From the NCBI GenBank assembly GCA_003244105.1, contig QHBK01000013.1, positions 1 to 64,000 of the forward strand: a stretch of 64,000 nt of DNA, given 5' to 3'. This DNA comes from Candidatus Eremiobacter antarcticus (GTDB lineage: Bacteria; Vulcanimicrobiota; Vulcanimicrobiia; Eremiobacterales; Eremiobacteraceae). A program made the translations under genes and the position numbers. The notes beneath the pieces are model-generated. The model worked only from the letters and a program-made list of their open reading frames with translations. It had not been told where the DNA came from and did not search any database. Positions 10,147 through 47,297 of this stretch are shown here, piece by piece; position 1 is the first letter of the stretch, and the number at the start of each line of letters is the position of its first letter.

Positions 10147-11133
10147 CTAGGCGCCGGCCGGCGCGAGCGCGCGTTCATCCTCCTGCGGGATTGCCGGCTC
10201 TTCGATGCGATCGCATAGCTGCCGGAAATTGCAGCTGCGGCACAAGACCCGGTTCTCGGTCATCGGAAAGCGCGCGATGTCCCCGGCCTCGTTGGCAACC
10301 GCATCGGTGAGCCTGCTCGAGACATCCGCGACGTAGGTCGCGATCTCTCGGCGCGCCTCTTCCATTCCTTCGGCGATGTTCGCGATCGTCTCATGGCCGC
10401 CGGCCGTGACATACACCAGATGTGCGGTCATGCGCTCGAGGGGTTGACCAAATTTCTCCTGCACGAACAAGCCGTAGATGGCAAGCTGCGCCAGATCGGG
10501 CTTGAATGGCTTGCCGGTCTTCCAGTCGATGATGTGAAGACCGCCGCGCTCGTCCTCGACCACGAGGTCCGGCGAGGCGTACAAGACCAGACCGTTCAGG
10601 CTCACTCGTCCGTCCGCGACATCTTTTGGGTCGATGAAGCGCAGGCGCTCCTTGGGCACGGCGAACACGCGCCGTCCGAAGCCGCTGTGGGCCAGCCCCG
10701 TTGCGCACGTGCGCAGGGCGGCAATCGCTTCGGCCTGCATCTGCTCGCTCACGCCGCTCTGATAATAGTCCTCGAACAGGATGGCATACCGCTTGACGTC
10801 GGCATGGCGTTGCCAGTCCGCATTGCGAGATTCGCGCAAGCGCTTGAGGAGGCGGCGCTCCATGTCGTCTGCCAACTGACCGGCGGGAACCCCAGCCGCT
10901 CGCTCGCTGCGACGCCGCAGAATCTCACTCAGCTCTTCGTGAAAGGTCTCACCCACGAGCATCGCCAGGTTCTTCATCTGCTTGAGGCGGTAGGCGAGCG
11001 CAGCCTGATCGGGAGCATCCTCGCGCCAGCCGTTCCACGATCCGTAATACTGCCAGTACAACTGCCGCGGACAGCGATAGAACACGCGATGCCGGGACCA
11101 AGAAAAGGCGAATTCGTTCGTCAGATCAGGCAT
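10147..11133 (-). CDS. PD-(D/E)XK nuclease with Fe-S cysteines (RecB/Cas4-like)
   Basis: A stand-alone nuclease domain of the RecB/AddB-C/Cas4 type, 328 residues. The catalytic core is DLVVEDERGGLHIIDWKTGK (motifs D, then D-x-K). One Cys near the N terminus (FYRCPRQLYW) and three near the C terminus (VLCRSCNFRQLC) form the C...C-x2-C-x5-C pattern that holds a 4Fe-4S cluster in AddB and Cas4. No CRISPR repeats or helicase gene lie next to it, so it is not an evident Cas4. A DNA repair or recombination role is likely. Confidence 0.82.
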   Translation of the reverse strand: MPDLTNEFAFSWSRHRVFYRCPRQLYWQYYGSWNGWREDAPDQAALAYRLKQMKNLAMLVGETFHEELSEILRRRSERAAGVPAGQLADDMERRLLKRLRESRNADWQRHADVKRYAILFEDYYQSGVSEQMQAEAIAALRTCATGLAHSGFGRRVFAVPKERLRFIDPKDVADGRVSLNGLVLYASPDLVVEDERGGLHIIDWKTGKPFKPDLAQLAIYGLFVQEKFGQPLERMTAHLVYVTAGGHETIANIAEGMEEARREIATYVADVSSRLTDAVANEAGDIARFPMTENRVLCRSCNFRQLCDRIEEPAIPQEDERALAPAGA

Positions 11134-41726: not shown

Positions 41727-42947
41727 GTGCGTAACTTCATCTTAGAAGAGATCGCCGAAGCCTTCGACGACCGCAGCGGCCAGTTCCGGTACTTCTTCAA
41801 GACCTCGTCCGGCCGGGTGGAACCATACGCATCAGATGATCCGGCAGCGATGCACCTGGCAGGCCGTCCTGACGCATATGCCATCAGGCCCCTGTCGTAC
41901 GCGGAGTCTCATCAGATGACGGCCGACTTCGTCGCAACGCTTGCCGATGAAGCGCTGGCGGCCAAATTGCAAGCTGCAGTCGGCGAATCAGGAGCAGGCA
42001 AGGGCTTTCTGCAGGTGTTGCGCGCGTATCCGCGGGCGCGCCGCTCTTGGCTTTCCTACCGTCAAAGGCGTCTGGAGGCGCTTGCCCTGCAATGGCTGCG
42101 GGAGCACGGCATCGATCTTGCCCGTTTCGGCCTTGACCGCCCAACGCGAGCGCAAGAAGACGCCGCCGGATTGCGCTTCAACGCTGCTTTGGACGAGCGG
42201 ATGGACGCCGTGCGGGAGCGGGTCGCTCGCTTCAACGCCCAACCCCACGCCGCGGCCGCCAGAGCGGCCTGCCGGCACTCGATGCGAACCGCGGAGATCT
42301 TCCATTCCAACGCCGTGCGCGGCAATCGTTTGAACCTGGAGCAGACGGAAGAGCTGCTCTCCCGGGGCACCTCCGTCGGCGGGCTCACGCTGCGAGAGCA
42401 CTTGGAGGCGGTCAATTTGAACCGTGCTCTCGACCGTTCCGAAGTGCTGGCGCTGAGCGACGCGCCCTTGACGGAACACGGCATTCGCGAGCTGCATGCG
42501 CTGCTGTTCGCCTCGATCGACGACGAGAACGCCGGATTGTACCGGCGCATCGATACGCGCATCGTCGGACGAGATTACTTGCCGCCCGAGAGCGTGCTCG
42601 TGCCGGCGTTGCTTCGAGAATTCACTGAGTGGCTTGAGGAGGCGCCCGCCGACACGCTCGCGCGAGCGACCGCAGCTCAAGCCAAAATCGCCAACATCTC
42701 GCCGTTCTTGGACGGCAATGGCCGGGTCGGCCGCCTGCTCTCCAACCTCATCCTCTGTTCGGCTCAGTATCCGCCGGCCATCGTCCGCGTGGACGACGCG
42801 AAGCCATACTACGAAGGCCTTCGTCAGGCCGATGCGGGCGACATGAGCATGTTGTTGACGCTGATGGTCGAGCGAGTGGAAGACGGCCTGGGCGTGTTGG
42901 AGCACGCGGTACGCACGCTCCCGACTGCAAAGGTGAGCACTCCATAG
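41727..42947 (+). CDS. UPF0158-Fic fusion protein, Fic motif without the catalytic His
   Basis: A 406-residue protein from GTG 41727. Residues 1 to about 130 resemble UPF0158 (FILEEIAEAFDD..FRYFFKTSSGRVE). The rest is a Fic domain with the helical inhibitory region and core. The Fic motif reads S325-PFLDGNGRVGRL, where active AMP transferases have His at the first position. The inhibitory helix reads S194-NAVRGN200, with Arg198 where class II Fic proteins have Glu. So both catalytic and autoinhibitory residues are changed while the GNGR loop that binds nucleotide phosphates is kept. It might be inactive, bind nucleotide only, or use another chemistry. The Fic fold is certain, the activity is not. 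Confidence 0.83.
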   Translation: MRNFILEEIAEAFDDRSGQFRYFFKTSSGRVEPYASDDPAAMHLAGRPDAYAIRPLSYAESHQMTADFVATLADEALAAKLQAAVGESGAGKGFLQVLRAYPRARRSWLSYRQRRLEALALQWLREHGIDLARFGLDRPTRAQEDAAGLRFNAALDERMDAVRERVARFNAQPHAAAARAACRHSMRTAEIFHSNAVRGNRLNLEQTEELLSRGTSVGGLTLREHLEAVNLNRALDRSEVLALSDAPLTEHGIRELHALLFASIDDENAGLYRRIDTRIVGRDYLPPESVLVPALLREFTEWLEEAPADTLARATAAQAKIANISPFLDGNGRVGRLLSNLILCSAQYPPAIVRVDDAKPYYEGLRQADAGDMSMLLTLMVERVEDGLGVLEHAVRTLPTAKVSTP

Positions 42948-42964: not shown

Positions 42965-45049
42965 GTGGCAGCGGCCCGCCGCGCGGCGGTGTGGGGCGGC
43001 TTGCTGCAAGCATCTCCGGATCGCGCTGAGCTGCGCAACTCGTGCGTCCGGCCACCCGAGAACGACACGCTTCTTGTCGACGACCTGGCGGCATTGCTGA
43101 ACCGCTGCGACGCAGCTTCCGTCTCGGAGGCGGCGCTTGCATGTGCCGCAGCGGGCAGTGGCGACGGCTTGGCGCTGGTCGCCGCGGCGCTCTACGCGGC
43201 CCGTCTGCATCTGCAGGCTGCGGGTCTCGGCGTTGAACAACGCCCGGCTCAGGAGTCCATGCTGCAGGTCAAAGAAAGGCCAAGGCGCGCTGTCTTTGCG
43301 ACGACGCACGCTGCGCTCGCGGCTTTGGAGCAGCTCGGCAAGACGACGGTGTTCGCATCGCGCGCGCTCTTGGCGGCTTTGGACGATCTGGACGACGACA
43401 GCGCCACGGCCGCGGTGCGACGGTTCTTGGTTGCCGCCTATCTCTCTGATGGCGGGGAGCATTTCGTGCGGGCGTTGGCGGGCGCGCCGTATCGAGTCGA
43501 TCCCATTCATCTGCGGCTGGCGGCACGGTGCCTCGAGAACGATGGCAAGACGCGCCCGCCTGCGGCCGCCATGAGTGTGCGTAGCGCCACAGCCCTTGCC
43601 GTGGCCCAAGCGTCCGTGCGAGAGACGGCGGTGGCAGCGGCCGCTGACATGGATCGTGCCGCCGCACTGGCAAACGACCCCGGATTTTCCCTGGCGCGAG
43701 CGCTCGAGCAGGCACAGGGCGAAGTGTGCGGACGCAGCGCCGCCTTACAAGACGAACGATTTTCGCTTCTGTCCGCGGCAGCGGCGTGCGACCGGGTTTG
43801 GTCGGCCACAGCCGCAGCGCCGGCGGCTGCGTTGCGGATCGCCGCCTTCCTCGAGGCTGTGGACTCGCGCCGGGTTTCGCCGGCTCTGACCGCTGTCGCC
43901 CGTCCTGCACATGCGTCTTCTCAGCCGTCCGCCTCGCTGCGCTTGCGCGATGAGGGAGCGTCGCCCGTCGTCGTCGATGCTTTCCTCGCAAGCTTGGAGC
44001 TTGACGAGAAGGGCACCAGCGCTTTTGTGGCCGAGCCCGTCGACATGGTTGCCACAATCGACGCCTCATTGCGTGCGGCGGCGGCAGACAGCGGGCTCGA
44101 AGCACCGGCGCCGGCGCCGTGGACGTGGCCCCAGCCGGAAGCAGCCGCACAGCTGACGGCCGCAGGCATGACGTTTTCTGCGTCTCGCTTGAACGCATTC
44201 GTCAAGTGCCCGCGCCGCTGGTACTACGAGTACCTGTGCGGGGTGCTGGACGATTCGACATCGATGCAGTCGTCGTACGGGCGTGTGATGCACGCAGCGC
44301 TGGAAGCGCTCCACCGCGATTTCCGGATTCCGTCCGACCACGAGCCGGTCGCGACGCTTGAACGTCTCTTGCTCGAGCTCGACTTGGCGTTCGGCAGCGC
44401 GCGTTACGATTTCGCATCGCAGCTGGAATACGAGGTCGCTCGTTCGCGGGCGCGCCGCATGGCGGCCCAGTACGTGCGCTGGCTGGACGCCCAGGCCCGC
44501 AAAGCACCGCTTGAGATCCTCCACGTCGAATCGCTGCATCGCTTCAGGCTGGGTGGCCACCAGTTCGTCGGCTATATCGACCGGATCGACCGCCCGCTTT
44601 CCGGCGGCCCAGTCACCATCTTCGACTACAAGACGGGCCGCATCGACAGCGACGCGATCGAGTACCTGAAGCGAGTTCGCCGCGGAGAGGAAGCGCAGCT
44701 CGCGCTCTATTACGCGATGCGCAAGGATCAAGGCGACGACATCGCGAGAATCGCGTTGATATCGCTGCGCGATCCACGCGACGAGGTGTGGATTTTGGCT
44801 CTCGACATCACGAACGACGACGGGAGCGCGGTCATCGAGCGTAATGCCGAAGACGGCGTCTTGCGCGCGGCGTGCTCGCGGCTGGATTTGGCCGCGTCCT
44901 TAGATGCGTTGCTGGCGCGCTGCGACCAACTGACCTCTACGGGCTTTGAACACTTTCCGGCGGGCGTCGATCCGCCGTGCGACTTCTGCGAATATGCACG
45001 GGCATGCCGTGACCGCCCGGTTGCGGGAGAGCGCATCTTTGCACGCTGA
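42965..45049 (+). CDS. AddB-type Fe-S PD-(D/E)XK nuclease subunit
   Basis: A 694-residue protein whose C-terminal 270 residues match the nuclease domain of AddB and related helicase-nucleases. They contain FVKCPRRWYYEYLCG, the GRVMHAALEAL block, the catalytic VGYIDRIDR and IFDYKTGR (D...D-x-K), and a closing C-x2-C-x5-C cluster motif (DPPCDFCEYARAC). The first 400 residues are Ala-rich and helical, with no Walker A and no family I can name. Start GTG 42965 is tentative. The stop overlaps the TTG start of the helicase-like gene, so the two are translated together and probably form a complex for DNA end processing. Confidence 0.8.
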   Translation: MAAARRAAVWGGLLQASPDRAELRNSCVRPPENDTLLVDDLAALLNRCDAASVSEAALACAAAGSGDGLALVAAALYAARLHLQAAGLGVEQRPAQESMLQVKERPRRAVFATTHAALAALEQLGKTTVFASRALLAALDDLDDDSATAAVRRFLVAAYLSDGGEHFVRALAGAPYRVDPIHLRLAARCLENDGKTRPPAAAMSVRSATALAVAQASVRETAVAAAADMDRAAALANDPGFSLARALEQAQGEVCGRSAALQDERFSLLSAAAACDRVWSATAAAPAAALRIAAFLEAVDSRRVSPALTAVARPAHASSQPSASLRLRDEGASPVVVDAFLASLELDEKGTSAFVAEPVDMVATIDASLRAAAADSGLEAPAPAPWTWPQPEAAAQLTAAGMTFSASRLNAFVKCPRRWYYEYLCGVLDDSTSMQSSYGRVMHAALEALHRDFRIPSDHEPVATLERLLLELDLAFGSARYDFASQLEYEVARSRARRMAAQYVRWLDAQARKAPLEILHVESLHRFRLGGHQFVGYIDRIDRPLSGGPVTIFDYKTGRIDSDAIEYLKRVRRGEEAQLALYYAMRKDQGDDIARIALISLRDPRDEVWILALDITNDDGSAVIERNAEDGVLRAACSRLDLAASLDALLARCDQLTSTGFEHFPAGVDPPCDFCEYARACRDRPVAGERIFAR

Positions 45050-47297
45050 CGCCGGCAGGCTGCGGCTGAGCCAGGCGCAGGCGCCGGTGCTGACCGTATG
45101 CGGCGCTGAGATTGTCGTGGTCACCGGGCCGCCGGGGTCCGGCAAGACCACGGCGCTTGCGGCCTATGCCCAGCAGTGCGAACGCGAGGGCCGCAACACC
45201 GTCGTGGTGTGCGCGCATGAAGAAGGCGTGAGTGAGTTGCGGGATGCGCTCGAGCAGATGCGCGAAGACTGGGACCCGCAAGCGGCAGAGACAAGCCCTG
45301 CCGCCGCTGCGACGATGACTGCCGTGGGGATGCTGGCCGACCATGCAGCGGCGTGGATGCGCCGGTCGTACGTCTCTGCGCGCGTCGCGCCGGATCTGTG
45401 CGTCGGGCCGCCGGCTGCCGCCGAGGCGATCGTCGCTCGCGCGGCCCGGGGTCTGCTGGACATGAGCTGGCCCATCTTCGCGAGCGGCGCGTTCAATCTT
45501 GACCTGCCCCACCTCAGCCGTCCCGACGCATTCTTGCGCGAAGCGGCGTCCCTGTTCACCCTGCTGCAGCGCTCGCGCGTCTCGCCTGAAGAGTTCGAAG
45601 CCGGCTGCGCTTCAGGCATGACCGCCTTTTACGGGCGCGACGTCGAGAGAGCGGCCATTCTGCTGCAGGACCCGCAGTTGAGGGAGCGGCTCAGCAAGAG
45701 AGGCCGGGAAGCCTGCCGTGCTTCCAACGCGGCGCTTGGCGTTCAGCGCGCGGCCGAACGAGACGTCGCTGCAATTCTCGCGCAGCTCTACCGTGAGTAT
45801 CTGACTGTGGCAACGGCTGCGCCCATCCGCACGGCCGAGGACATCCTCGACGCCGCGCTGCGGTGGCTGAACCAAAGCGAAGACGCGGCCGCGAGCGTGC
45901 GCCGTCGCGTCGATTGCATGCTGGTCGACGACGCGGAAGACGCAGAACCGGCGCTGGGCGCGATTGTCGCGGCCTTACGCAGGCCGGCTGATCTCACAGT
46001 CGTGCTCGCAGGGTGGGAGCCCGCGGCCGTCGCGGGTTTCGAGGGACGCCGAAGCGCACTGGAGATGACGAGCATCAGCCGGCGCATCCAACTGCCGCCG
46101 CGCGAGGCAGCGAGCGCCCCGCGGGTTGCGCGCCTGGACGACGAACGAACCGAAGTCGAGTGGTTGGCGAAGGAGATCGGCGCCTTGCTTGACGCGGGAG
46201 AGCGTCCGGAAACAATCGCGCTGCTCTGCCGCACGGAAGATGCCGCCTTCTCATACGCTCGAAGTCTGCGCGCGTACGGCTTGCCGGTGTCGGTGCCGCC
46301 GGACGCGTTTGAAGATCAGGCCGAGCTCTTGGATCTGCTCTCGCTCTGTGCGATCGTGGAAGATCCTCTCGACCCCGAACATTTGTTGCGCGTCGCAGCG
46401 TCGCCGCTGCTGGGTCTGAGCGACGCGACGATCTCGCGACTTTGCCGCGAGCCCGCGGACGGCAGACAGCTGACGCTGCCTATCGCTGATGCGCAGGCCG
46501 ACCTCAACGCAGGCAAGAGCGCTCATCCGATGACATTCGCCAAGAATCTGCTGCTCGGTGAGGCAGACGGGTTCGTGTCCGAGGAGACCGCCGACGTGCT
46601 CGGGCGCTTCCGCCTCAAGCTGGCCGCTTGGCGGATGGACTGCGCGGCGTCCGCGCCGGTTGGAAAGTTTGCTCACCTCATGAAAGCGGGCGGCTTTCAC
46701 GAGCGTTGGCAGCAGTCGCCCGCTCATTATCGCAGCCGCCTCCTCGATGACGCAAACCGAGTGGCGGAGACGCTCGTAAGCGCAACGCGCGGCGACGAGG
46801 CGTTGCCGATCCGCGACATCATTATGAAGTTGGAGGAGGAATCGTTGCCCATGCGTCGCGCTCGCCGGACCTCCGGCGCGGTCGCGACTGACGGCATCGC
46901 ACAGGCAAAAGGCTGCCGCTGGAGGCATGTCTTCGTCGCCGGCGTCGCGCACGAACGGTTCCCGCGCATCTATGCATCTCATGCGATGGCGTTTTCGCGC
47001 GCGTTCGGCCTGATCATACGAGAGAACGTAGCCCGGGGCGCGGCCCAGACCGCGAAATTCGCGTGGTACTACGCCAAGTTCGGCGCGAAAGCGATGTACC
47101 TCGAAGAGGAGCGGCGTGCGCTGCGTTACGGGCTGTCGCGCGGAGTGGCCGGTTCGGCCGCGAGCGGGTTCGGTTCGGCCCCACGCTGGGCAAGCGATCA
47201 GGATCTTCTGGCGTCGCTGGCACGCGAGCACGATGGCGGCGAGGCTTCAACGGCCAACGCCCCGATCGAAGCCTCAGCGGCCGGCGGAAGCGGGTAG
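45039..47297 (+). CDS. Degenerate UvrD/AddB-like helicase subunit
   Basis: An SF1-like protein of about 750 residues, starting at TTG 45039 inside the end of the nuclease gene. Motif I is intact (VVTGPPGSGKTTALAAYA). Later motifs are altered: motif II reads LVDDAEDAEP for the usual V-DE-x-QD, motif III reads VVLAGWEPAAVAGFEG without the D-x2-Q, and motif VI reads RYGLSRGVAGSAASG where active enzymes have YVALTRA. Motifs IV (IALLCRT) and V (QAKGCRWRHVFVAGV) are recognisable. AddB shows a similar state, with an ATP site kept and unwinding motifs lost. It is likely a structural or DNA-scanning partner of the nuclease. Confidence 0.75.
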   Translation: MHADAGRLRLSQAQAPVLTVCGAEIVVVTGPPGSGKTTALAAYAQQCEREGRNTVVVCAHEEGVSELRDALEQMREDWDPQAAETSPAAAATMTAVGMLADHAAAWMRRSYVSARVAPDLCVGPPAAAEAIVARAARGLLDMSWPIFASGAFNLDLPHLSRPDAFLREAASLFTLLQRSRVSPEEFEAGCASGMTAFYGRDVERAAILLQDPQLRERLSKRGREACRASNAALGVQRAAERDVAAILAQLYREYLTVATAAPIRTAEDILDAALRWLNQSEDAAASVRRRVDCMLVDDAEDAEPALGAIVAALRRPADLTVVLAGWEPAAVAGFEGRRSALEMTSISRRIQLPPREAASAPRVARLDDERTEVEWLAKEIGALLDAGERPETIALLCRTEDAAFSYARSLRAYGLPVSVPPDAFEDQAELLDLLSLCAIVEDPLDPEHLLRVAASPLLGLSDATISRLCREPADGRQLTLPIADAQADLNAGKSAHPMTFAKNLLLGEADGFVSEETADVLGRFRLKLAAWRMDCAASAPVGKFAHLMKAGGFHERWQQSPAHYRSRLLDDANRVAETLVSATRGDEALPIRDIIMKLEEESLPMRRARRTSGAVATDGIAQAKGCRWRHVFVAGVAHERFPRIYASHAMAFSRAFGLIIRENVARGAAQTAKFAWYYAKFGAKAMYLEEERRALRYGLSRGVAGSAASGFGSAPRWASDQDLLASLAREHDGGEASTANAPIEASAAGGSG

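Follow-up and report, generated by a model that had tools for sequence, protein, structure and literature searches.

Two neighbouring genes of an Eremiobacteria genome raise the question of how a helicase-nuclease comes to be encoded nuclease first. They lie in a stretch of DNA of 64,000 nucleotides, here called the window, and encode an apparently complete nuclease and, behind it, a helicase-like protein with worn motor motifs. In the initial annotation they were read as one AddB/AdnA-like gene, split in two with its halves exchanged. Gene order, conservation, ancestry and the repair genes of the class were examined for what they say about the origin and the likely role of this pair.

Locus and gene order

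The window lies on contig C13; the genome, 2.64 Mb in size and 95.8% complete, belongs to Candidatus Eremiobacterota (now Vulcanimicrobiota), class Eremiobacteria, a class of soil bacteria. The nuclease gene comes first and the helicase-like gene second, and the two overlap, as initially annotated (Table 1). The overlap, put there at a few bases, amounts to 56 nt when the second gene is read from its likely start, ATG 44994, or to 104 nt from TTG 44946, where its open reading frame opens upstream. Among the relatives of the nuclease that carry a name in the genome collection, the best 80 were Eremiobacterota records or metagenome-assembled genomes with non-committal or doubtful labels, two of these 80 being labelled Proteobacteria or Rhodospirillales.

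Table 1. Features of the nuclease and helicase-like genes (positions in the window).
Feature	Position	Strand	Remarks
Nuclease gene P0001	42965..45049	+	694 aa, predicted start GTG 42965; helical remnant N-terminal, PD-(D/E)XK nuclease with Fe-S cysteines C-terminal
Putative weak 2A/2B remnant of an AdnA-like helicase in P0001	43319..43840	+	residues 119-292
PDDEXK_1 nuclease domain of P0001	44171..45010	+	
Cys415, first Fe-S cluster cysteine of P0001	44207..44209	+	invariant 40/40
Catalytic residues of P0001		+	H443 (44291), D539 (44579), D554 (44624), K556 (44630), Q578 (44696)
Cys672, Cys675, Cys681 of P0001 (CxxCx5C)	44978..45007	+	AdnA-like (gene 1) spacing
Helicase-like gene P0002	44994..47297	+	767 aa from ATG 44994; UvrD fold
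Walker A (GPPGSGKT) of P0002	45120..45149	+	intact in the window copy
Motif II of P0002	45924..45941	+	DDAED in place of DExQD
Motif III region of P0002	46002..46040	+	GDxxQ lost (AGWEPAAVAGF)
Motif V of P0002	46881..46922	+	altered: TDGIAQAKGCRW vs TxHxxKGLE
Motif VI of P0002	47103..47147	+	largely retained: EERRALRYGLSRG

The nuclease gene

P0001 was matched to the Pfam family PDDEXK_1 over residues 403-682 (E=3.6e-32) and carries every element of a RecB-family PD-(D/E)XK nuclease, namely the histidine, the aspartate, the D-x-K motif, the glutamine and four cluster cysteines (C415, C672, C675 and C681). The catalytic residues and the four cysteines are invariant in 40/40 homologues, which confirms the earlier description of the nuclease as intact. 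A fifth cysteine, residue 425 (window 44237-44239, YLCG), is likewise invariant in 40/40 homologues. No motor motifs were found in P0001 by Pfam domain search, a phmmer search against the PDB returned chance matches only, and nothing convincing was matched in the A2 profile search. The nuclease domain was also matched by TIGR03623, 'probable DNA repair protein' (1.3e-14), but TIGR03623 is an 876-position single-chain model with a 300-bit cut-off, against which P0001 scores 53.

The helicase-like gene

P0002 was matched in Pfam to UvrD_C (2.2e-10) and to the UvrD N-domain (UvrD-helicase, 6.5e-6); the same domain search found no C-terminal nuclease domain. The AlphaFold2 model is a confident UvrD-type fold (pLDDT 88, pTM 0.87). 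The complete SF1A (UvrD family) motif set I-VI is not present among the split helicases, as the homologues of P0002 are called here: motif I is kept in 38/40, motif VI is largely retained, and motifs II, III and V are altered. The two losses of the Walker A lysine are in G002 and G012. In motif II the first aspartate is present in 41/41 and Asp-Asp replaces DE, with the catalytic glutamate changed to aspartate, in 37/41; the glutamine of motif III and the TxH of motif V are absent in nearly all, the GD of motif III being retained in many copies of family f2. Arg732 of motif VI (EERR...SR) is present in 38/38. The initial annotation was therefore right on Walker A in the window copy and on the changes in motifs II and III; it also listed motif VI as altered, although this motif is largely retained, and left out the alteration of motif V (TxHxxKG). 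The f2 split helicases mostly retain Walker A, an acidic residue following the motif II aspartate and the motif VI arginine, and a slow ATPase activity is possible for them.

Conservation in the class

The sample comprised 61 Eremiobacteria genomes, most of them metagenome-assembled. Matches to the helicase query were found in 60/61 and to the nuclease query in 61/61, a few of these genomes (e.g. G013) being matched through an intact pair only (see below). In 58/61 genomes the nuclease gene precedes the helicase gene and lies on the same strand; the genes are directly adjacent on one strand in 57, and the 58th (G042) has an insertion of 1.5 kb. The other three are uninformative on order: G013 is 72% complete, G015 has a contig break and G049 lacks the helicase. 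The open reading frames overlap or abut at 39 of the 40 loci measured, the remaining locus being the one with the insert. An assembly-broken single gene is ruled out by the recurrence of the split in 58/61 genomes. Single-chain order in close relatives, named in the initial annotation as evidence against its own reading, was looked for, and no fused gene was found at the locus of the pair in any relative among the 61 class genomes. A distinct and conserved pair related to AddB/AdnA, nuclease first and helicase second, was correctly recognised. In G042 the insertion consists of a 443-aa Big_2/pilus-domain open reading frame (L101:9220-10551) between the nuclease and helicase genes.

Pairwise dN/dS values for both genes were 0.10-0.33, so both are under purifying selection. 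The highest scores of the split-helicase profile were 910 bits in the class and 156 bits in the other classes of the phylum, where the matches are judged to reflect generic UvrD/AdnB similarity; on these profile scores the helicase-like subunit appears restricted to the class, as far as the phylum goes.

The neighbourhood is fixed in each of two families. In f1, to which the genome of the window belongs, it consists of a sigma/anti-sigma factor, Fic, the pair, a TonB-like and a xanthine dehydrogenase-like gene; in its sister family f2 it is different, with UbiX-like, the pair and GNAT, followed on the opposite strand by DinB, endonuclease IV, ScpB and ScpA (except for Fic, TonB and GNAT, the names were assigned by reading the sequences, without a search). 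The conserved-neighbour analysis found no gene linking the pair to recombination in f1; DinB, endonuclease IV and ScpAB in f2 are at most suggestive of such a link. In most f1 genomes the pair is directly preceded by a Fic-domain gene of the same strand (window 41727-42947), which perhaps belongs to one operon with it. In most f2 genomes a GNAT (Acetyltransf_9) gene, e.g. L085:7443-8393, lies 3' of the helicase gene.

The intact pair and the ancestry of the two parts

The initial remark that no AddA/RecB-like motor is present holds for the window and not for the genome: contig C14 (133387-139703, L065) carries two full UvrD+PDDEXK genes in tandem with intact motor motifs. This intact pair is written (hel1-nuc1)(hel2-nuc2) for gene 1 and gene 2, and the label 'AdnAB-like' rests on its architecture and order. 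It supplied the nearest relatives found for both split parts, but differs from them in its full-length genes, undamaged motors and two nucleases. Nearly all rows of gene 1, gene 2 and UvrD have undamaged motifs II and V, and most have an undamaged motif III; no split-helicase row has any of these three intact. The intact pair is patchy in the class, occurring in 19/61 genomes and being absent from 42/61 (40/45 in f2, plus G002 and G012 in f1). AdnAB was confined to Actinobacteria in a 2019 survey (PMC6452273), and given that survey an AdnAB-like intact pair in Vulcanimicrobiota is notable in itself. A third PD-(D/E)XK nuclease, stand-alone and 328 aa long, is encoded inside the same window as the split pair (10210-11106, minus strand, L003; PDDEXK_1 1e-20, cluster-type cysteines).

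With a split-nuclease HMM, scores were 54-133 bits for gene-1 nucleases and about 19-28 bits for those of gene 2. Split and gene-1 nucleases grouped with support 97/95, and placement of the split nucleases with gene 2 was rejected by the AU test (p-AU 0.011). The cysteine spacing is CxxCx5C in 24/24 split and 18/18 gene-1 nucleases, as against CxxCx6C in 16/16 gene-2 nucleases. These sequence comparisons all trace the split nuclease to nuc1 of gene 1. The split-helicase HMM scored 173-264 bits with full-length gene-2 helicases and 72-123 bits with gene-1 helicases; in the tree the split helicases, a long branch, grouped with gene 2 (95/91), and the alternative with gene 1 had a p-AU of 0.125, above rejection. 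Descent of the split helicase from hel2 is thereby moderately supported. Residues 119-292 of P0001 were aligned by hhalign to residues ~421-591 of hel1. The E values for hel1, hel2 and UvrD were 9.4e-4, 0.24 and 0.53 for the f1 stub and 5.5e-6, 8e-4 and 0.012 for the f2 stub, the alignments to hel1 being weak (hhalign probability 22% and 86%), and the identity of the P0001 N-terminus as a hel1 stub is moderately supported. The length of the stub falls from ~390 to ~21 aa across families.

Most simply, an AdnAB operon would have been duplicated and one copy cut back from either side until (nuc1)(hel2) remained. With the nuclease from gene 1 and the helicase from gene 2, the order would require no swap, just loss of the outer halves, and would look swapped because these halves are gone; trimming an operon from both ends is a simple route to a seemingly 'swapped' domain order. 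In G075 (C42, L220:4906-7602) an intact-type gene 2 ends after the motor, without a C-terminal nuclease, and is followed by unrelated genes. This genome is a fragmented metagenome assembly; the gene is a possible natural intermediate of such trimming and suggests that loss of nuc2 can occur.

Comparison with known systems

Mycobacterial AdnAB (PDB 6PPJ, 6PPR, 6PPU, 9NP6) resembles the pair in structure: AdnA chains were the top Foldseek matches of the predicted P0001 structure, and AdnB chains gave the highest TM-scores among the PDB matches listed for the P0002 model (6ppr_B 0.65/0.65). Also shared are the order, AdnA-like then AdnB-like genes side by side (on the above supports of 97/95 and 95/91, with p-AU 0.125 for the helicase with gene 1), a PD-(D/E)XK nuclease, here with the gene-1 spacing CxxCx5C, and one motor without detected ATPase, which in AdnAB is AdnA (PMC13309787). 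Each AdnAB subunit, however, combines a motor with a nuclease, whereas here the nuclease (with its stub) and the damaged motor are on separate chains; an AdnAB would be expected to have a full set of SF1A motifs in one motor or both, and motifs II, III and V are damaged family-wide. The damaged motor is moreover the AdnB-like one, AdnB being the working motor in mycobacteria.

In AddB and RecC a dead helicase fold is re-used for holding and scanning single-stranded DNA (PMC4824097), and the pair is similar in having kept a helicase fold while losing motifs. AddB differs in that a single chain carries first the helicase and then the nuclease and works alongside an active AddA motor; in all informative genomes the parts found here are separate genes in the reverse order. 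No AddA-like partner adjoins the pair (conserved-neighbour analysis, 41 loci), and most species are without any AddA-like partner. No report of the nuclease-helicase pair was found in the literature searched, in which subscription journals were sparsely covered.

Origin of the pair and alternative explanations

The explanation favoured here, at somewhat better than even, derives the pair from a helicase-nuclease of AdnAB type and takes it as a form peculiar to the class, a trimmed duplicate in which the nuclease would be assisted by a DNA-holding, non-motor partner. The duplication of an AdnAB-like operon, (hel1-nuc1)(hel2-nuc2), would date from the origin of the class or earlier, and one of the two copies would have lost the hel1 motor at its 5' end and nuc2 at its 3' end. 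The remainder, (hel1 stub-nuc1)(hel2), would be a pair of genes that overlap and are probably coupled in translation. Their products most likely assemble into a heterodimer of AdnAB shape, in which one subunit is an active Fe-S PD-(D/E)XK nuclease and the other has an SF1A helicase fold. The fold would still bind DNA, and ATP in most species, with processive motor activity gone. Because the dead folds of AddB/RecC hold single-stranded DNA and no ATPase of AdnA is detected, the helicase part is, by analogy, probably an ATP-binding DNA clamp and not a processive motor. Between G002 and G012, which have lost the Walker A lysine, dN/dS of the helicase gene is 0.14; its role in these two should therefore be independent of ATP hydrolysis at this site.

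The exchange of halves proposed initially, by which the helicase and nuclease parts of a single AddB/AdnA-like gene were separated and traded positions, agrees with the identity of the two domains and with their order, and placement of the helicase with gene 1 survives the AU test; it is nonetheless quite unlikely, and probably wrong, since the nuclease is nearest to gene 1 and the helicase to gene 2, that is, to different parent genes, since a hel1-like remnant precedes the nuclease, which is unexpected after a clean swap, and since the loss of two outer halves requires no rearrangement. If the helicase half were a divergent working motor, the pair would be a genuine two-gene, ATP-driven helicase-nuclease. 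The near-constant Walker A lysine, the constant motif II aspartate and motif VI arginine and the GD kept in many f2 copies speak for this, but the glutamate-to-aspartate change in motif II, the loss of the motif III glutamine and motif V TxH in nearly all copies, and the selection maintained in the two species without the lysine make it unlikely.

A defence system of the nuclease-plus-UvrD kind, such as Gabija (GajA/GajB), would likewise encode a nuclease and a UvrD-fold protein together, and weak matches to GajB and Cas4 models were obtained. Such a role is very improbable and unsupported by context or distribution: the pair is near-universal in the class, its neighbourhoods are fixed family-wide, no match was found in phages (nuclease query) or plasmids (helicase query), and the weak GajB matches amount to generic UvrD similarity, far below those of the intact pair. 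The nuclease family differs as well, GajA being of the OLD/TOPRIM family; no GajA match was found in PADLOC, and the nuclease here is PDDEXK_1. That the genes are decaying, functionless leftovers of a duplicated operon would fit the progressive loss of motor motifs and the shrinking of the stub between families, but is hardly credible given the dN/dS range, by which a pseudogene is ruled out, the invariance of every catalytic residue and the retention of the pair class-wide, genomes without the intact pair included. A mobile or viral origin was also rejected, the helicase having no match among plasmids and the nuclease none among phages; viral contigs gave weak nuclease-domain matches only, at 22-43% identity.

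DNA repair gene set and proposed role

In 32/45 genomes of f2, the largest family, the split nuclease is the single match of a PDDEXK_1 search. RecJ, searched with one family model (TIGR00644), was found in 0/61 class genomes, the same search being positive in 13/14 controls; RecO was found in 59/61 and Ku in 53/61, and a UvrD-like gene (open frames mostly 714-960 aa) in nearly all 61. In G014, which is one contig of 3,508,363 bp, the split pair supplies the only PDDEXK_1 match, so that incomplete genomes alone do not explain why AddAB, RecBCD and AdnAB are missing.

Because 42/61 genomes are without the intact pair and RecJ was found in none, the split nuclease may be the main DNA-end nuclease of these 42. 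The missing intact pair, the lone PDDEXK_1 match, the lack of a RecJ match and the presence of RecO and Ku point to end-processing in recombination as the most likely role. In recombinational repair the trimmed complex would probably hold broken or gapped DNA ends and pass them to its nuclease, the strands being separated by a different helicase, for instance UvrD; this step would lie upstream of RecO-dependent RecA loading. We infer heterodimer, substrate and pathway, and the distinct end-processing machine of the initial annotation is, as a reading of function, probably right.

A broader proposal is offered tentatively, as possible but doubtful: the whole class would resect breaks mainly by a motor-less or motor-poor machine made of the inner halves of AdnAB, which in most species would replace RecBCD/AddAB/AdnAB and RecJ, with a helicase acting in trans. 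In helicase-nucleases that resect breaks, linkage of the nuclease to a powerful motor is thought necessary; if the proposal is true, a class-wide, selected version with a worn motor and a separate nuclease would test how much motor suffices. The pair would be the only RecB-family nuclease in most hosts, with RecJ not found either. A cultured host with a closed genome, Vulcanimicrobium alpinus WC8-2 (PMC9758169), makes the question directly testable. With no RecJ match in any genome and RecO and Ku in most, the class has an unusual DNA-repair gene set.
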